Of a stretch of DNA of 64,000 nucleotides, positions 340 to 52,729 are shown piece after piece. Below the pieces are notes generated by a model. The model ran no database searches, had not been told where the DNA came from, and saw only the letters and a list, made by a program, of their open reading frames with translations. Within the stretch, counting starts at the first letter, position 1, and every line of letters starts with the position of its first letter. The stretch is from Thuidium tamariscinum. Taxonomy: Eukaryota; Streptophyta; Bryopsida; Hypnales; Thuidiaceae. The stretch spans positions 4,588,001-4,652,000 of the forward strand of contig OX344751.2 in NCBI GenBank assembly GCA_947034885.2, in the 5' to 3' direction. A program made the position numbers and the translations under genes.

Positions 340-378
340 TTAACCCCTAAACGTCGGCGGCGCCATTTTGTGGCCTTT

Positions 379-427
379 GGATGAAGAATATTTGCCGTGG
401 TCACCACGGAGGGACAGTTCTTCATCC
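379..427. repeat. Subterminal palindrome of the piggyBac element
   Basis: Ten-base perfect arms GGATGAAGAA (379-388) and TTCTTCATCC (418-427) enclose a second perfect palindrome, CCGTGGTCACCACGG (395-409). It sits about 40 bp inside the left end. piggyBac elements often carry internal inverted repeats near their tips that help the transposase bind, so this is a candidate binding structure. The function is inferred. Confidence 0.6.
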
Positions 428-990
428 GCCATTGAGGTAATGAGGTAGTACGCCAACTTGTGTATATGATGGTGGTGTCAGTGCAGTGATTCAGCGGTTT
501 CTGTATTTTTGAAAATTGAACCAGTGAGAAAAACGGGAAGGAACAAGCGGCCGATTGAAGGGAGTAGTGTGCCCGAATCTATGAGTTGGGTAACCTTGAA
601 ATATTTTTTTTCAAGCTCCAGGCTCTGACCATGAAAGAAATACTGGTTGACAAAGTTTTGTAGAACCTGCCCTGCTCTCAGACCTGTCAATGAAAGGGCA
701 GTTTGGGAGAGTATGTGAGCTTCACGAAAAGGTCGGCCCCGCTGACTTGCCGTGTATGCCAGAGCACAATCTTATAAAATAAGGACGAATTGAGGGGCCC
801 GCAAGGGCAAGGTGGCCTTCGTAATTACTGATCTTTTGCAGCTTGCAACCTTGCACTGAGAAATGGCGGCGTGAACTTGCAGTGCAAGCCCTGATCTTCG
901 TGTGGGAGGTTTGAAGATGCAATGGGCACAGAACGACGGTGAAAGCACAATTGAGAGTAGAGTGAGAAGAAGGAATTCTAACATTGAGCT

Positions 991-1452
991 ATGTCGAGAT
1001 ATAGTGCGAGAGAGAAATTCGATCATTTGCTTGAACCTACAACACATCCATCATGGTGTATCAAAGAGGCCTGCGCCATAGCGTCCGAATTGCTAATCAC
1101 ACACAATGCCACAAAGTGGCAGCTGCAATATATGATGGCCATGTTGGATGAGAAATATCTTCTGAGCTTGCCAAAATTAGAGGGCGATGACAGTGGTGAA
1201 TTCCAATTCGATCGCACAGCATCGAATCTGCGGTACCTGTGGTTGCGTTGGAGTGCTTTACTTCTAGGATGGAAACGATATAGACCTGTAGGGCAAAAAG
1301 GTGGTTTCTCTGTAGAATTGTTCACTACGTTGAGGGACCGCATCTTTCCGTTTCCAAAAATAGAGCATGGCGTCGATGAGGAACTTGAAGAGTCATGCGA
1401 GGCTGGGGAGAAGGCAGCAGGTGGCGGTGTCGGGTGTCCACAACCGACTTGA
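991..1452 (+). CDS. Unidentified ORF inside the piggyBac element (153 aa)
   Basis: An ATG-initiated frame of 153 codons in the 5' third of the transposon. The product starts MSRYSAREKF. It has a mixed, protein-like middle section with several Trp and Tyr residues (about residues 75-105) and an acidic, then Gly-rich, tail. I do not recognise a domain. It may be a 5' exon of the transposase transcript, a second element-encoded protein, captured host sequence, or chance. Its place between the terminal repeats and on the same strand as the transposase argues for an element-encoded product. Confidence 0.4.
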   Translation: MSRYSAREKFDHLLEPTTHPSWCIKEACAIASELLITHNATKWQLQYMMAMLDEKYLLSLPKLEGDDSGEFQFDRTASNLRYLWLRWSALLLGWKRYRPVGQKGGFSVELFTTLRDRIFPFPKIEHGVDEELEESCEAGEKAAGGGVGCPQPT

Positions 1453-1700
1453 ATCAGTGCACGGCGATATCGATCAATAGCGGTACATCATTGTTTACAA
1501 GAGGCGACGACAGTCGACTGGGTCGAAAGCGATGGAGCCTGCCCACGGAAGACCCGTCGATCCCAACAGCTCCAGCGCTGATGCAGACGTCGACCGGGCT
1601 CGGCATCGACATAGTGCAGGCGGAAGTTCAAGCGGAGGCGGGACATCGAATGCAAATGGGAGTGTGACTGCACACAGGTACGTCGACGGAGACATTCACG

Positions 1701-2231
1701 GTGCACGAACTCTCGTCGCACTTCGGCAGGCAGCATCGGAGTACGTCGCCCATCCTGACTTCGGAACATCCACTCAGGTCAGCAGCTCCTGAGACTGTTC
1801 ATGATCCTGTACATAGCCATCGTACCTTAGAAGTAGTGAAAGTACAGAGGCATCTACTTAGAGCGGAAATACAAGAGGGCTTTGTAGAGACGGAGGAATG
1901 GTTTGCAGCATACGTGATAAATGAACGAGTGGATCCTAGTACGAAATTTTTGTACCTACTTGTAAGATTTGATGATGGGGAGGAGCGTAAGATTTGTGCT
2001 GGATCTGCGTCAAGACCTGAGCGGCAACAACAAGGAAGAGCATCGACGAGGTGGCTAGCAGCAGCGGCGTTGTTCGGCACGTACAGCATGGGGACAATGG
2101 TGAAGACGTCGATGAACACGCCCACGCATCCTCAGGTGATGACTTCTTTAGCTCGGACTACAGCGACAGCTCGGGAAGGTCCACGCCAACAGAAGCGGAC
2201 ATCGATGGTGACAACACGGACGAAGGGCTGA
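1701..2231 (+). CDS. Tudor/Agenet-like reading frame in the piggyBac element
   Basis: A 176-codon frame in the same phase as the downstream transposase core. Around residues 60-100 it has the pattern W-x-x-A-x-V-I, then Y-L-L-V-R-F-D-D-G-E-E-R. This resembles the barrel strands of Tudor, Agenet or SGF29-type domains, which read methylated histone tails. From about 2020 a second frame (2051-2788) takes over with better-looking composition, so the real junction is probably an intron or a frame break near 2.0 kb. The domain call is a visual pattern match only. Confidence 0.35.
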   Translation: MHELSSHFGRQHRSTSPILTSEHPLRSAAPETVHDPVHSHRTLEVVKVQRHLLRAEIQEGFVETEEWFAAYVINERVDPSTKFLYLLVRFDDGEERKICAGSASRPERQQQGRASTRWLAAAALFGTYSMGTMVKTSMNTPTHPQVMTSLARTTATAREGPRQQKRTSMVTTRTKG

Positions 2232-2788
2232 AGAACGGAGAGGACTCTAATCGACAGGCAACTGAAGAGGACGACACGGACGACACGATGTCGGAGAACA
2301 CCTACGTCGCTGCCGGTCAGCCAAGAGCAATTCTCCGGTATGCCACCTCCGAATCAGTGGAAGTAAGACAGAAATGGAGAGTGCAGGACGAGCATGTCGC
2401 ATTTCATGAAGGAGGCCCTCCATTGACCAGTGGAAGGCGCCCTTCATCGAAGACTGCAGGTGGCCATCCCCCTGCAGAGGCTCATGCAACGGGTGGAAAG
2501 CGATCGTTGCCCGAGCGTGGGAAACGGAGATTGAATACCGGGAAAGGGCGGAATTCGAATTTGAACTTGCCGCCTTCTGATGGAGTGAATGCTGACCCCT
2601 GTGGACTCCATGACAACGACGGCAGCAGCTCTGACTCGTGGTACCAAGGTGCCCAGACTGCAGTCTCGCATCGAAGAAGACGAAGAGCAGCGACATCGCC
2701 GAGCACTGCACGACGCAAGTCAGAGCAACGGCAGAAAGAGGTGGACGTTGACGAAGCTCTACGTCGTCGCTTCGCTGAAGACCAGTAG
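2051..2788 (+). CDS. Acidic Ser/Asp-rich N-terminal region of the piggyBac transposase
   Basis: This frame is rich in Asp, Glu and Ser in its first 80 residues (for example DDFFSSDYSDSSG). It then turns basic, with an Arg/Lys cluster near residues 206-235. Many piggyBac transposases begin with a long acidic, low-complexity region followed by the conserved core, which fits its position just upstream. It lies in a different phase from the core frame that opens at 2589, so an intron or a frameshift must lie near 2.6-2.8 kb for the two to be one protein. Its first codon in the open frame is GTG; the first ATG is near 2288. Confidence 0.45.
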   Translation: MASSSGVVRHVQHGDNGEDVDEHAHASSGDDFFSSDYSDSSGRSTPTEADIDGDNTDEGLKNGEDSNRQATEEDDTDDTMSENTYVAAGQPRAILRYATSESVEVRQKWRVQDEHVAFHEGGPPLTSGRRPSSKTAGGHPPAEAHATGGKRSLPERGKRRLNTGKGRNSNLNLPPSDGVNADPCGLHDNDGSSSDSWYQGAQTAVSHRRRRRAATSPSTARRKSEQRQKEVDVDEALRRRFAEDQ

Positions 2789-4358
2789 CTTCCACATGTC
2801 CCGTTCTATAAAAATGCTGCATTGCCATTCACAAGACCAGAGCCAAGGTGCAGCCACCCATACGGCCGCCTACCTAGTGTCAAAGGCATTTTCCAAAAAT
2901 TCTAGTCTGAGAGAATGCATTGTCAGAGAGTCGAACTTGTATGCATCGGAAGTTATAAACAAGGACGGCAGAACTAGAGGAGGGCCTGATTGGATCCCTC
3001 TGGGTCTTGCTGAATTCAGGGCGTACTTGAGTATCACCTTGTTCATGGGCATCAAGCGTTTTCCCAACCGTCGATTGTATTGGTCACGTCAAGAAAGTCT
3101 GTACCATTGCAATGTCATCTCACGCATCCTCACGCGAGACCGATATGAACTAATCACGCGATGCTTGCATGTATCTATCGCAGCACCGGAAATGAGGGAT
3201 CGGCACAGTCCATCGTTTGACAAACTACACAAGGTGAGGTGGCTCGTGGATGACGTCTGCAAGAACTTCCAAGCCCTCTGGAGATCAAATCAGTAGGTCA
3301 CTGTAGACGAGAGCATGGTGATGTACAAAGGAAAATATTCTCCTATCAGGCAGTACATGCCGAAGAAGCCGGTCAGATTTGACTTGAAGGTCTGGGCAGC
3401 CTCTGACGCTTTGTCAAAATATGTTTGGAATTTTGAAATTTATTGTGGAAAGGTACGACATGTTCAGGAAGAGGACTCCAGTAGTGAAGACATCGACATC
3501 GATAGCGTCATGTAGACTGATTTCCCGGAGATTGAAGGCGCAGGTGCGGGATTGCAAGGTAGGCATGTAGTGAAGGAACTGCTGCAGTCCTTACAAGGGA
3601 AGGGCCACATAGTCACTGTCGATAACTTCTTCACGTACGTCCCTCTTTTTCTTGACTTACTGGACAGAGGTATTATGGCGACAGGAACTCTGAGAGCAAA
3701 TCGCAAGTATGTACCTCGTGCATTGTTTGCGAAGCGGGTCACCAAGAAAATGGACTATGGCTGGTCGGACTATCGCATGCATGTGGAGGGCAATATCTGC
3801 TGCTCCGTGTGGAAGGATAGGAACGCTGTTGTTCTGCTATCGACTCATGCCGCTCTAGTTCCAGCTGCAAGGTTGAAATCGTTTGTGCGTCGTCGGATCG
3901 ATGGAAAACGAAAGAAGGTGAAAACTACTCCCATGCATCTGCAATACACGCAAAACATGCGTGGAGTTGATACGTCTGACCAGCTTCGTGGGGTGTACTC
4001 CTGTTTGACATGCAGCCACAAATGGTGGCATCGATTGTTCATGTACCTTCTTGATACAAGCATTTGCAATGCCTGGATCATTCATAGCGATCTGAGCTTC
4101 AGGTTCATGGAAGAGCCGCTCACGCACTTGGCTTTCCAAATGGAGCTAGCGAAGCAATTCATCGCCAAGTGGGGTGGGCGCACTCAATCGTACTCCATAG
4201 TGGCTGCAACTGAAGCTTCCACCCACGGCACAAGAAGCATGGGGACAAAACGTGCAAAATGTTTTGTGTGTGGCAAGAGAACAAACCAAGCATGTCCTGC
4301 ATGTCAGAAATACATATGCAAAGGATCTTGCTACTGGGAGAGTCACTGGTCTTATTGA
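2589..4358 (+). pseudogene. piggyBac transposase core (DDE_Tnp_1_7), with two in-frame TAG codons
   Basis: One frame runs through this region and is cut by TAG at 3294-3296 and 3513-3515. The conserved core begins near 2790 with the family's 'SNLYA' block (about 2930-2945). The three expected catalytic aspartates are all present: in VTVDES (codon 3306-3308), in TVDNFFT (codon 3621-3623) and in GVDTSDQL (codon 3969-3971). These correspond to D268, D346 and D447 of insect piggyBac. The C-terminus has a cysteine-rich zinc-binding module (C-x2-C-x5-C-x2-C, then C, C and H; about 4258-4350), also typical of the family. The first TAG lies four codons before the first catalytic Asp. The intact motifs and few lesions point to fairly recent inactivation, or to stops skipped by splicing, which seems less likely. 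The enzyme would cut and paste the element at TTAA. Confidence 0.85.
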
Positions 4359-5402
4359 AGTGAAATGCGAGCAGGACATGAAGACGGCATTCTTTGCGAT
4401 GAAATTTGGCGCGGCCTGACTGCGAGTTTACAGAAGACCTTCATGAGGCAGGAGCCTTCTTGTCATGGCGTGAGCTTCATTTCGTAGGATCATTTCCCAT
4501 CACTCACACTTGATGCCGTTTGAAAGTGCCGGCAAAAATTTTTATTGCCACGATCTGTGCATGCGGCAATGATTGATGTCGATGCGGAGCACCATGAGCA
4601 GCGTACTTCAAACTGCGCAGGACACATTGCCGTGGGAAAGCGTCCGCCCTTCTATCTAGAAGACTGACGTGGCAGAGCGGGCTGCTGCGAGGTTCTGGCC
4701 GGGCACTACGTCTGCTTTTCAGGGCAGGTCACCAGTGACCGAATACCCAACCGGTGGTCAGACTTCTTCGCCTGCCCCACGGCATCAGATGCTTCGATTG
4801 CCCGTGCCCGTTCTGCCCGACCACATTTCTGAAGAATGTCGACTTCACAGCTCGAAGGATGCTCAATGAAGCGGAGCACGACGACGGGGATAGTGGAGGG
4901 GCGTCAGTACAAGCGCTGCTCAGTTTCTAGAAGCCGAAAAGAACATCAAGCAGAGTACCAGGAATTTTTGAAAACATTTTGAGTTTGTTTTTTTCCCCAA
5001 GAATTCTATGTCTCTCCCCTTGCAAGTACTGGATTTCTCATTTCACTTTCTTGCTTGCCAAGTTACTAGCGTCCATGTCATACTCTGTTCATTAGCTCAT
5101 GAAATCACTATCATGCTGCATTGTGCTAACCTCCTCAATTTCCTCCGATCGAATTTTTCACACCGCATCTGTGCTGCCCCCACTCCCATCCTGCCATAAA
5201 TCACACCACCACGCACCGTGTCCACTAGTAAAAATTCCTAGTTCTCAACACTGAGCTGCCGCACATCCTCAGCAAGAACGCTGCAGTCCTGAATTGCCGA
5301 TTCCATGGCCTGCCGATTTGTCATGATTCGTGAAAGATCAACCCACGGCTGTAGGCTCTCCTTCACTTTTGGACCAACGGTGACCAGTCCGGCAGTTCAA
5401 GG
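4359..5402. other. 3' non-coding part of the piggyBac element
   Basis: No convincing reading frame is seen. A short perfect palindrome, GGTCACCAGTGACC, lies at 4727-4740. The region carries the GC-richer composition of the element and ends at the inferred right terminus. Confidence 0.5.
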
Positions 5403-5406
5403 TTAA

Positions 5407-6610
5407 GGTTGAGGGGTTATAAAGAAGAAAATGCCAATGTATTCTTTGGAATTGGCACTTGAATTTGTGGCCAAAATTGTGCGTTCATGGTAGTTTCATA
5501 AAGGTGAAAATTAGTTAATGTAGTTGAAAGGAAATGTGATTCATTGATAGTTTTGTGCACATGAGCTGCAGGGATTGTAACAACGTTAGCTCTTGCGAGG
5601 ATGACTTTTGCAACTTTATGTGGTGGCACAAATATGGTGGCACTAAAGCAAATTCTATCATTTTTCATTCCGAAACTCACAAAGTGTGTCACTTCTCATT
5701 GAAAATGAACTATTGTCAATAGTGAAGTGGGCCCCTATTTCTGTTCTTTGTGACTACTTCCACTCACCCCATATTATGTTGCTATTTTAGGGAATGAAAA
5801 GTGATGGAGTTTGCAATTGTGCAGATAGTGAAACCAAAAATGCAATAATTTTTTATTCTTTGCCTTCAAAACCTAAGGTAAACTAGCCCATGACAGGCCA
5901 ACTTTCTAATGCAAACATCTACAAAACTATCCATTACAGTTTTGTATCAATCCATCGCAAAAAAATTCTAATTAATGAGGTTAGGACTTCATTAGGTAGG
6001 TTAATGGCCACCAACATCATGCCCAAAGTGGGGGGACTTTACAAATAACTCAATTGACTTCAAAAATTCATAACTAATTCCACAAAGCTCCAAAAAATAT
6101 GAAATGACTTGGGTTAGATGCCTATTCTAGCTGTCTTTCAAGGAAAATTCACTGAAAAATATTTCAAGATGTTTCACCTACCCTAAATTCAGTTCCAGCC
6201 ATTAGATGATTGGTTTATGGACCTCCTACCTTACTTCCTTGCTCTTAATCTGGATTTCAGACTGAATAAATTTCAAATAGGGGTGACGGGAACCGGTATG
6301 GACTTTGTTTCATTGGTGGAGACGTTCACCCGGTATTGAAGTCGGTACATAAGACCTGGCGCAGGTTCGCAAGTTCATCTTCCAATCCCATGTCCTTTAG
6401 CTCGCAAGTCGCAACCCGCAATTGGCACCATCTCGATGAGTCCCGAGTCCCGACGTTGCCATTCTAAGCTTTCAGAGCTCCTTTTGGCATTTCTGAATCC
6501 ATCTCACGGCAGACTTTCCTTCTCGTAGACTAACATTGAGCTCCACCTCGGTTTCCTGAACAGAGCAGGGGATGCAAGTCCTCAAGAGTTTTTGCTGATT
6601 GCCTTCTGAA
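5407..6610. other. Intergenic DNA and PPR gene upstream region
   Basis: An AT-rich flank with no supported gene. It contains one TA-flanked MITE (listed separately). The 370 bp before 6611 are more GC-rich and are likely promoter and 5' leader of the PPR gene. I see no clear TATA box. Confidence 0.4.
5993..6233. mobile_element. TA-flanked MITE, AGGTAGGRGG family, copy 1
   Basis: The right end reads GGACCTCCTACCT followed by TA (6232-6233). The left end is more decayed (TAGGTAGG at 5993). The interior carries the family core: a block matching GGTCCAAAAAATATGAAATGACTTGGGTT-like sequence and a CTTTCAAGGAAAATTCACTG block. The same core recurs at about 11.4, 34.3, 34.9, 37.1, 43.6, 44.4, 45.5 and 46.5 kb. 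The TA duplication suggests mobilisation by a Tc1/mariner-type transposase. Confidence 0.6.
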
Positions 6611-18300: not shown

Positions 18301-21300
18301 CAATGACGCAAACGTCACTCGCTAATATCGAAGGAATGCTGCTTGCATAAATGGACAAAGGTGCTGTTCTGCAAATCCACTACTTGGCATGAACCTTGTT
18401 TATTGGATTTGTGGACTGAAGATGGTGTTGTCATATTGCCTAGGTACCTGCAAAACAATAAGTTGACCGGTCCAATCCCAGCGTCCTTGTCTAAGCTTCT
18501 ACTTTTGGACACCTTGTGAGTTTTCTGACGCTTATATGACTCTTTTCTTGCCTGTGCTAATGATTCCAATATCTTATGAACATTATTACACCGTTTGATC
18601 TGATTTTCTAAGTTTGATTCCGGTTGCATGAAACAGGGACGTGTCTAATAACATGCTGACAGGTTTCCTCCCACCTGATTTGAATCCACCAAATTTTAGG
18701 TACGTTTACTTTTACTCTGCTCTACCACAAAAGATCACTAATCCCATATTCGATTGACGAATTTTTTAATATGAAGTTAATAGGAAATAGATTCATATAG
18801 TCCTAATGCTGAGTTACTGTACAAGTGAATGTTAGTGTTACCCAAATGGTTCTAGCAGCTTAACGTCCGTGTGGTGTCAGAGTCGCGGCATGGGCTATTG
18901 TATTACAATGAAAGAGATTAAGTAATGCCAAGTCAACATTAACTGTACATTAGTTTCAATTATCTTAATATTGATTTTATGTACGTTCTATCAGATTAAA
19001 TTTAATTTGCCATAAATATCTTTATGAATTGAAAAGGGATCTCTCGCGATGCTATTCAGTGGAAAGTGCGCTCTGCTATTTGTGCAGGCACGGAGGCAAT
19101 CAACTCAGCCAGCAAGCTCCTCCTCCACCTCCATACACTCCACCTCCATATGCTCCACCTCCACCTCCAAAGAGCCCAAAGCCAGTAACCCCACCAACAG
19201 TTACCTCATCTCCAGCTTCTTCATCTAAGTCATCAAGTTTCTTATCAGGCTCCAAAATGGTTGCATTAATTGTAGTAGTCATTCTGGTGCTTGCTGCCGC
19301 TGGTATAGCGGTGTGGTTCTTTGTTATCCGGAGCAGGCCTGAGCATTTGAAGGCATCAGACATCGAGGCTAATATTCACAGCAGTCGGCGAACCTGGTTT
19401 TTGCCTCTTATTCCACCTGGAAAAGGTCAGTGCACGTTCTCTCCGAATCAAATCACAAATCACAGATATTTCAGAACTAGAGCACTTCGAGGATCGATAA
19501 CTTTCATTGGTTGCATGCATTCAAAGTGGGAATAAAAAAAGGGTAACATTTTGAACCATTGCTGGTAGGATCACTCTTTTGAGAGAGCAAATTCAATCTA
19601 GTGTTCCTGGGTAAGAATGCCTGGTGACCTGGAATCTGAGCTTATGCTTATTGTCAAGTCTCTAAGCTGTTTTGATGACTTCCAGGATCCCACCGTCCCT
19701 CTCCGGGTATGAAAACGTGATATATTAACCCAATGAATGGAAGTTGATATAGAAATCTGACTTGTTTTTGTCTGGGTCAATACAGAGAAGACAAGAAAAA
19801 TGAAGGTATTTGAACCAGGTGAGGATGTTTGCTGCCAGACTTATACATCTATTAAATGAAAGTGATAAGTCCATCAGCTGTGTGAGAACTCTGGTATAGT
19901 TTTTGGCAGAAGTCTCAGGAGTCCCTATGAGAATAATTTGCAGATATAGTCTCTGAGTTCCATTGAATTTCCGAAGTAGATGACCATGAAAAAGTTAAAA
20001 CTTATTAAGATTCAGAGTCTCTGCCAACATGCGATTTTTGGTGACGTAGTAAACTGTCATCGTTTAAAACCAAAGTTCTTTAGGATTGCGTTGTAGTGAA
20101 TACAGGGAAATAGGACTAGGGCTCCAAATGATTTTTTCTAATATCATATCTAAGTTTTCTTTTAAATTTAATTCTGCTGTGAGTTGGCCTTTTAGATACA
20201 TTTGAGAAGGGAATGGAAGAAAGAAAAATCAAGGCTTCACCTCCAGTGAAGTCACTCAAAGTTCCGCCAGCATTTAATCGCGAAGAAACCATTATTGAGG
20301 ATGCTGTAGTAGGGAAGCTGAATAGGACCAGTATTCTAGCGACAGCTTTCTCCGTGGCAGATCTTCAGGAGGCTTCGAACAGTTTCTCGCAAGGCAACTT
20401 ACTCGGCGAAGGATCCCTTGGTTGTGTGTACCGCGCTGAATTTCCCAATGGCCAGGTGTTTGCTGTCAAGAAACTTGACACCAATGCGTCGATGGTGCAC
20501 AATGAGGATGATTTCTTAGGCGTGGTGGAAGGCCTGGCGAAGTTGCAACATGCCAACTCGGCTGAGTTGGTGGGCTACTGCGTCGAGCATGGGCAGCGGC
20601 TTCTAGTGTACGAGTACATCGGTCGAGGGACACTGCATGAGCTACTGCATGGAGGTTTAGTTGAGAACTCCAAGAGATTGACGTGGAATACGCGCGTGAA
20701 GATCACATTGGGTGCAGCTCGCGCTCTTGAGTACGTGAATATCTATCTTCATGATATCAATTAAGGGTTACGTTCGCTCATCACATGAGTGAGGCCTGTT
20801 AGATGTCATACTTTAACTTACTAGGTGTCCATCGTCTCGTGTCTGCATGTGTCTTTCAGGCGTTGGGCATAGTAAATAAGTCTTTGAAATATTCCCAAAT
20901 ACTTTGGAATACTCGTTCTAAGAATATGCTTATTACACAGACCGCGGTCTGTTAGAAATTGTGTTAAACATACTAGATGTTGTGTTGTCTGTGTGAGAAG
21001 ACAACATCCCCTTCTCAAATTAGAGCAGGACTTTCAAATCTTGCATTTTGAGCAGTAGGTTGGCTGTGATCAGCAAGGTCATCAGTGCACGTACATCCCT
21101 GAGAAGTGTGCCTATTCAAACTTTAGATTGGGTGAATTTGGGCTTGCAGGTATTTGCACGAAGTATGTTTACCACCAGTCGTGCATCGCAACTTCAAGTC
21201 TGCCAACATTCTATTGGACAATGACCTCAATCCACATGTCTCGGATTGTGGTTTGGGAGCTCTTGCTCCATCTAGTGCCGAAATTCAGGTACATATCCCT

Positions 21301-50908: not shown

Positions 50909-52729
50909 ATGAGCCCCCTTCCGGCGCTGTTCCAGCTGACCTCCATCGCCTTCACCCCGGATTTGCAGCGGGCGAGGCAAGAGGCCGCGCTCAAGAGCCA
51001 GGAGACGAAAGCGAAGGAGGTCGCATGGACCAATTTCCCCAAGGACCTCTTGGTGGGGGCGTTGATGGGCGGGGTGGCGCACACCGTGGTGGCGCCCGTG
51101 GAGAGAGCGAAGCTCTTGTTGCAAACGCAAGACAGCAACATGGTGGTCATGGACGGGAAGCACCCGCGCTACAAAGGGCTTTTGGATTGCATCGTGAGGA
51201 TCGCCAAGAACGAAGGCGTGCTGTCACTGTGGAGGGGGAATATTAGCAGCGTCATGCGGTATTACCCGTCGCTCGCCATCAATTTCGCCTTCAAGGTTTG
51301 TGTGCTCTCCCTTAGGGTTAGTCATGTTTGTGACCGTGCACTCTCCTGACTATGCATTTTCACTTGCGTCATGGGGTTGGTTCGAAGATCATGTGAATCA
51401 TGGTGGATTCTGTGATTTGCATTCAAGTTTTCATTGACAACAAGCGCTTGAGATTCATCTACTGCTTGTAGATGCTTTCACTCTCGTTAAGAGACACAAC
51501 TGGTCATACAACGAAGTTCCTTGTAATTCTACAATCAATGAAGATGTGAGTAAAATGCAAAGGAAGAGAACCGATTTTGTTCAGTATGACTGGAAATTCC
51601 ATGCAAGCATTCCGCGCGGAATGATTGCAAGGAATTTCGCTAATATTGTAAGAAACTTGCGTCTCTTCTTGTTCAATTTATCCACGTATTCATTAATTGT
51701 AGAACCACAAAGAACAGTACTGCATGACCATTTTTGCCTTTTTCGGAGAGAAAACACATATGGGCAGTAGATGAATCGGAAGCGCTTGGTTTCTGTGAAA
51801 ATTAGAACACTATACATAGAATGCGTCATAAATCACACGATGATCCTTGGACCATTCTTCTTGTGGAAGCTTTGAGACTCAATCGTTATGAAGTTTCAAA
51901 ATTAATTGCATTTTCTAATCCACTGATCACTTGGGGTATGTTACCACTGGCATTAAATGTATATGTGTATGTAAAGCATTTTTGTGCACGACAACCCGTA
52001 ATTCGTTGCACGGCATTACTTTGGAAATCTCCATGGATTGTGACTGATGCATGTTTTCTGTGTGATTAATTGCAGGATTTCTACCGAGCGTTGTTGACGT
52101 CGGGGGCCAGTCACGAATCTAAGGGCGCCTTGAGCAACGCCCCGGCGAATTTCCTGGCCGGCGCCCTGGCAGGCTGCACGAGCCTTGTCTTCGTCTACCC
52201 GCTCGACATCGCGCACACTCGCATCGCCGCCGACATCGGCCGCGGCACGTCTCGCCAGTTCCAGGGCCTGACCGACTTCCTGCGCACCATTTACAGGAAA
52301 GATGGCATTCGTGGCGTGTACCGCGGTTTCCCGGCGTCCGTGCACGGCATGGTGGTGCACCGCAGCGTCTACTTCGGCGGCTTCGACACCGCCAAGGAGT
52401 ACCTCTCGCAAGACTCGTATCTCTCCTTTTGGAAGCGCTGGCTCATCGCCCAAGGGGTGACGACTTCAGCCGGTCTGATCTCGTACCCGCTGGACACCGT
52501 GCGCAGGCGGATGATGATGCAGGCAGGCCTGGAGAAGCACATGTACAGCAGCACGTGGGACTGCTGGCGGAAAGTGTACCGCCACGAAGGGGCGATGGCG
52601 TTCTACAAAGGCGCCGTCACTAACTTGGTGCGCGGCACGGGCGCTGCCTTGATCCTCGTGCTCTACGACGAAATCCGGAACTACATGCACTGGACATCCC
52701 CGGCCACGCTGGAGCACCGACGGGAGTAA
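50909..52729 (+). CDS. ADP/ATP carrier-like protein, PM-ANT1 type (2 exons, 346 aa)
   Basis: Exons 50909-51295 and 52076-52729 join in phase 0 at GT-AG. This is a mitochondrial-carrier-family protein with three repeats, each opened by its P-x-D/E-x-x-K/R signature: PVERAK (63-68), PLDIAHTR (171-178) and PLDTVRRR (267-274). The adenine nucleotide carrier signature RRRMMM is at 272-277. The segments VERAKLLLQTQ, YPLDIAHTRIAADIG and DTVRRRMMMQ follow Arabidopsis At5g56450, the plasma-membrane ATP transporter PM-ANT1, more closely than the mitochondrial AAC proteins. The likely role is ATP (and ADP) exchange across a membrane. The N-terminus (first ~45 residues) is longer than in many carriers and is not a clear transit peptide. 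The coding exons are strikingly GC-rich at third positions compared with the intron. The plasma-membrane location is inferred from the homologue. Confidence 0.9.

Follow-up and report, generated by a model that had tools for sequence, protein, structure and literature searches.

Positions 340-5406 of the window (the whole stretch of 64,000 nucleotides analysed here, C3:4588001-4652000, part of a contig of 47 Mb in an assembly that totals 363 Mb in 19 contigs) very probably hold a degenerate nuclear copy of a piggyBac-superfamily transposon in a plant, most likely a moss, with relatives that carry an extra conserved module and a second domain. The piggyBac identity, which an earlier note on this DNA had claimed, is borne out by the match to the Pfam family DDE_Tnp_1_7, the aspartate (Asp) motifs, the TTAA target site and the terminal repeats. 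A broader picture is offered tentatively, namely that a piggyBac branch which is ancient, diverse and mobile to this day may exist in mosses, with a multi-domain or two-part transposase. This enzyme would combine a three-aspartate (DDD) core with a domain resembling chromatin readers and with an N-terminal module that has had no name so far, and a very small conserved GT-AG switch, placed where the frames overlap, would allow module and core to be expressed jointly or separately.

Transposase core, decay and ends of the window copy

The DDE_Tnp_1_7 match, on which the earlier identification depended, was recovered in three significant stretches of the window (2589-3296, 3297-3515 and 3516-4358, with E 1.3e-19, 5.5e-11 and 2.4e-30, respectively), and the motifs named in the note were located at 3303 (VDES), 3618 (VDNFF) and 3963 (GVDTSDQ). 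By PDB sequence match, a relative from a young family, L044, resembles piggyBat (9c0f, E 3.4e-27) and the entry 6x67 (E 1.1e-22), which is named "Transposase" in the output and which we take to be the piggyBac of T. ni, with the Asp motifs aligned in both cases. The three motifs, the Asp residues of which are presumably catalytic, are conserved in this alignment and are present in the window despite its broken frame. The layout of the window copy is as follows, where ORF1 and ORF2 are the upstream and downstream open reading frames:

340..343, + strand: left TTAA target-site copy (TTAA likewise in the relative L042 and in all 11 young copies)
344..361, + strand: left terminal inverted repeat, CCCCTAAACGTCGGCGGC (first 50 bases 90% identical to the young-family end)
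991..1450, + strand: upstream module (ORF1, N-terminal domain), without a Pfam family
1700..1723, + strand: GARxLxxL, a conserved motif close to the ORF1 end, in frame 2
1827..2018, + strand: conserved ORF2 domain of about 64 residues, perhaps Tudor-like (sub-threshold matches only)
2078..2917, + strand: ORF2 linker and transposase start, frame 2, interrupted by stops at 2786 and 2903
2919..4349, + strand: DDE_Tnp_1_7 catalytic region, frame 3, with TAG stops at 3294 and 3513 and Asp motifs at 3303, 3618 and 3963
4260..4343, + strand: Cys-rich stretch at the C-terminus, recognized by eye and unmatched in Pfam
5385..5402, - strand: right terminal inverted repeat, degenerate
5403..5406, + strand: right TTAA target-site copy

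The matches to ORF2 pass from frame 3 (1827-2018) to frame 2 (2078-2917) and back to frame 3 (2919-4349). Given these two frame changes, near 2018-2078 and 2917-2919, and four in-frame stops (2786 and 2903 in frame 2, 3294 and 3513 in frame 3), the window copy is dead, and its ORF1 is also frame-shifted, being read in frame 1 at 1383 and in frame 2 at 1700. The description of this element as a nearly complete copy thus stands for its length and fails for its coding sequence.

A single alignment with 64.9% identity covers window 340-5406 and the relative L042 (C9:9.256 Mb), which has TTAA at both ends. As it spans the same stretch and ends in TTAA on both sides, the coordinates 340-5406 are taken to be exact, in agreement with the TTAA-flanked inverted ends that had been reported earlier. 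An alternative right end at 5416 (GAGGGG-TTAT) was rejected, given that L042 ends at the TTAA which matches 5403-5406. The terminal inverted repeats of the window copy are short and imperfect, with matches at 12 of the first 18 bases (TTAA counted), and those of the young family are clear (16 of 18, counted in the same way). These repeats start with CCCC on the left and CCCT on the right in the young family, and with CCCC and CCTT in the window, the young-family end sequences being TTAACCCC.TAAACGCCGG / TTAACCC.TGAAACGCCGG. The terminal repeats of piggyBac have been described as 12-19 bp long and starting with CCYT (PMC10175614), and the repeats found here agree with this description, with CCCC differing from CCYT at the fourth base.

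Just outside the element, window 6053-6233 matches L041 with 93% identity over 86 bases and L045 with 83% identity over 177 bases, i.e., another repeat adjoins the element, and in L045 the matching stretch sits within a long inverted repeat.

Families and recent transposition

The number of copies in the genome, another point on which the identification could be checked, is consistent with it and shows that the window copy did not arrive alone. The assembly contains 659 candidates for DDE_Tnp_1_7, of which 116 were scored, all 116 being above the Pfam cut-off and spread over ten contigs (C1-C10), and the family was found in none of 14 control genomes. Even its closest relatives at the DNA level share only 75-76% identity with the window copy over the searched 1.4 kb.

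The young family comprises 11 copies of an element of 5,096 bases, including the TTAAs. The first 400 bases of these copies are 100% identical as printed (one copy at 718 rather than 722 bits), as are at least the last 394 bases (one at 707 rather than 711 bits over the same length), and all 11 present TTAA at both ends, with flanks that are all different (ten fetched pairs and L044). Near-identical copies with TTAA ends and differing flanks provide strong sequence evidence that this family has transposed recently, at different sites. The DDD transposase of the intact relatives would be expected to cut at the terminal repeats and to insert at TTAA, an enzymatic activity predicted from the sequence.

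The catalytic cores of 23 loci, some of which are the same place or identical copies, were compared together with the window, and form at least two deep clades, which are 33-39% identical over full-length matches and 32 to 45% identical over the pieces of two broken copies. Synonymous sites are near saturation between families. The existence of many families, at least two deep clades and near-saturated synonymous sites would fit a long residence.

At C8:23932384-23943667 (L006, L007, L045), two copies of one second-clade family are arranged head to head, with their modules approximately 1.7 kb apart and transposase frames of 911 and 1127 amino acids.

The upstream module and its junction with the core

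Two module queries were used, one of 138 amino acids from L044, which returned 148 places (150 scored of 238 candidates), and one of 107 amino acids from L045, which returned 143 places (150 scored of 255 candidates), many of them common to both, so that their union has 244 places. Ninety-nine of these places are followed, on the same strand and at a distance of at most 6 kb, by one of 123 transposases (the 116 that were scored and seven places from the DNA search), and no module place was found within 6 kb of a transposase in any other arrangement. A same-strand upstream module accompanies 93 of the 116 scored transposases, where random placement, using rounded contig sizes and rough guesses for C6, C7, C10 and C11, gave a mean of 0.27 and a maximum of 2 in 300 trials.

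The module is characterized by a conserved Met start and a shared pattern around SLP and LGW, and is present in both deep clades, the cores of which are 37% identical. Nonsynonymous divergence (pN) of the module was 0.15-0.32 and its synonymous divergence (pS) 0.66-0.84 in 14 of 15 pairs, where L046/L047 were set aside as near-identical and L049 was left out as it was missed by the search pattern. Synonymous differences greatly exceed nonsynonymous ones in the module, in the second domain and in a 60-codon piece of the core, all of which are thus under purifying selection. In L050, the module and the core occupy one continuous frame of 945 amino acids. This linkage, the selection and the shared L050 frame argue that the module belongs to the transposase gene, in which it may function as the N-terminal part or a partner of the transposase, aiding either assembly on the ends or contact with the host chromatin.

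A Pfam scan of ORF1 (E up to 10) returned only Presenilin (E 2.6, one protein) and AAA_5 (0.21, one of seven). PDB profile matches of ORF1 to glucocorticoid and related steroid receptors (E 0.02-1.4) were judged to be due to chance, and a LEAFY-type SAM domain was rejected, given that the Pfam scans revealed no such resemblance.

The second domain, at window 1827-2018 in ORF2, is conserved across ten aligned members. Its Pfam matches are below threshold (Tudor_3 in two of ten and Tudor_5 in one of ten, with a best E of about 0.2, beside equally weak unrelated families), and no PDB sequence match to it was found. It is perhaps Tudor-like.

The distance from the GARxLxxL motif of ORF1 to the LEVV of ORF2 is exactly 127 nucleotides (nt), with a +1 frame, in all nine loci with enough upstream sequence (the window, L042, L044, L046, L047, L048, L049, L001 and L018), a constancy which disfavours an intron of variable length. 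The junction sequence is poorly conserved, with the exception of a GTGAG or GTGAA that resembles a donor and is found 54 nt upstream of LEVV in 10 of the 12 loci compared, a set in which L046/L047 (near-identical) and L048/L015 are close relatives; at this position, L042 has a weak GTCAG and the window has no donor. An AG is found at the start of LEVV in eight of the 12 loci. A GT-AG intron of 58 nt (58 = 1 mod 3) would join the two frames, and fits six of the 12 (L044, L046, L047, L018, L017 and L014), its acceptor not fitting L048, L015, L049 or L001.

The +1 relation holds in 40 of 74 pairs with equal spacings removed (p 2.9e-4 against one third), a value that overstates independence, as the pairs belong to related families, some of them decayed. 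No common slippery site for programmed frameshifting was seen by eye. The junction may use splicing, alternative splicing, reinitiation or frameshifting, and wherever the +1 frame occurs, the module and the core could be joined or kept apart by a short intron, by alternative splicing or by a second start.

A number of results weigh against the reading of a moss piggyBac element with an additional transposase part. Stops were found inside 42 of the 116 transposase matches, with 74 free of them by hand count. The upstream module went undetected at 23 of the 116 transposases, where diverged modules were perhaps missed by the two single-sequence queries, and 145 of the 244 module places have no listed transposase nearby, with only 116 of the 659 candidates having been scored. 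The frame of L050 encounters a TAG inside the core, the remainder of which lies in the next open stretch. In five of the nine junction loci (L044, L046, L047, L048 and L001), an in-frame stop is located between GAR and the putative donor, and as this stop precedes the donor, a simple spliced fusion is disfavoured in these loci, including L044 of the young family. The C-terminal tail, for which the earlier note had claimed a Cys-rich module, does present a Cys/His pattern by eye, but matches no Pfam zinc family. In addition, the absence of an rpoA-sized frame from the plastid contig C19, which bears on the identity of the host, was established between petD and rps11, and no homology search was made elsewhere on C19.

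Contig C19 (115,000 bases, 12,500 of them masked) carries rbcL, psaA and a plastid-like gene order, the other gene names having been read from frames. Mosses have typically lost rpoA from the plastid and, as no rpoA-sized frame is found at its usual plastid place, the host is most likely a land plant of this group. Among PDB entries, PsaA is matched best by 8htu and the 6l35/7ksq/7kux/7xqp group, all of which are presumably from Physcomitrium. The window itself includes genes for a protein kinase (20183-20764, PF07714), which may be the STRUBBELIG-like gene of the earlier note, and for a mitochondrial carrier (52070-52729, PF00153), and both these genes and the plastid contig agree with the land-plant host that had been proposed. 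The remark that piggyBac does not belong to the usual set of flowering plants has no bearing here, given that the host is not a flowering plant, and a little-described plant lineage was the better half of the guess that accompanied it.

The element might be an ordinary piggyBac, with an upstream open frame that arose by chance or was captured as a fragment of an unrelated gene, as the lack of a Pfam family for the module and its non-detection at 23 transposases in these searches could suggest. This explanation is contradicted by the linkage at 93 of 116 transposases and by the strong purifying selection, and neither the presence of the module in both deep clades nor the frame shared with the core in L050 would be expected from it, which makes it very unlikely. 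A recent horizontal transfer into the plant from an animal, fungus or virus would agree with the patchy distribution of piggyBac in plants, the premise of the earlier note, and with the youth of one family. It appears unlikely and is not supported by the comparisons made here, however, as many families, at least two deep clades and a synonymous divergence close to saturation are found in one genome, and among viral contigs no relatives were confirmed for two transposase queries, using short peptide patterns that reach close relatives only.

A contaminant, or a mis-join that brought in DNA of an animal or fungus, might also be considered, since piggyBac is best known from metazoans (PMC10175614). 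Either would be extremely improbable and was rejected, because transposase matches lie on ten contigs, a result that also removes this doubt from the earlier identification; moreover, 99 module places are linked to transposases genome-wide and the window contig bears the kinase and carrier genes.

Comparison with known elements and other observations

The elements described here have in common with piggyBat (9c0f) and 6x67 the DDE_Tnp_1_7 core, the aligned Asp motifs, the TTAA duplication, short terminal repeats starting with CC and perhaps, as judged by eye, a C-terminal Cys-rich stretch. In contrast with the textbook single-gene piggyBac, their core is preceded by two conserved additions, the upstream module and the second domain, and the open frame of ORF2 in L044 has 1023 residues. 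To our knowledge, the upstream module and the +1 arrangement are not part of any described piggyBac element. En/Spm and MuDR are two-gene plant DNA transposons, and are similar to these elements in that more than one protein product is possible per element, whereas their transposase families are unrelated, and the module found here may be fused to the transposase.

At approximately 5.1 kb, the elements found here are longer than the IFP2 of T. ni, which has 2,472 bp (PMC10803768). Repeat-masking annotations of piggyBac in the fern Ceratopteris (1230 pieces, 122,417 bp) and the grass Stipa (one piece, 75 bp) share only the superfamily label with these elements, and the available text of both sources gives no element anatomy. 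Mentions of piggyBac in "plants" are found without detail in the accessible parts of PMC10813416 and PMC10140906, PMC10619864 was discarded as a source, the word there being "piggybacking" of expression, and none of the terms sought occurs in PMC9942806. No description of a moss piggyBac was found among the open-access matches listed, a scope that lies outside subscription papers, supplements and Repbase.

The piggyBac system is a widely used gene-transfer tool, described mostly from animals in the portions of the literature available here. Many families and a recent burst of near-identical copies in one plant genome would offer a system native to plants, for research and perhaps also for application. 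The extra conserved module raises the question of the job of an additional transposase part, for which the young family is suited to a direct test.

Elsewhere in the assembly, plastid rbcL has a nuclear copy at C1:38347545-38348475, which is broken into two pieces and contains one TAG. Finally, the LEAFY SAM domain was found above the Pfam cut-off at five places besides one LEAFY-like gene (L021), including L023 442-1752 (C1:35.71 Mb), L024 693-1764 (C8:9.87 Mb) and L022 1459-1737 (C9:9.82 Mb). The upstream frame in L023 and L024 resembles a BED-type zinc finger by eye (zf-BED at E 0.049, below the cut-off, in L023; other weak zinc-finger matches in L024), and these loci possibly encode host proteins in which a zinc finger and a LEAFY-type SAM domain are combined.

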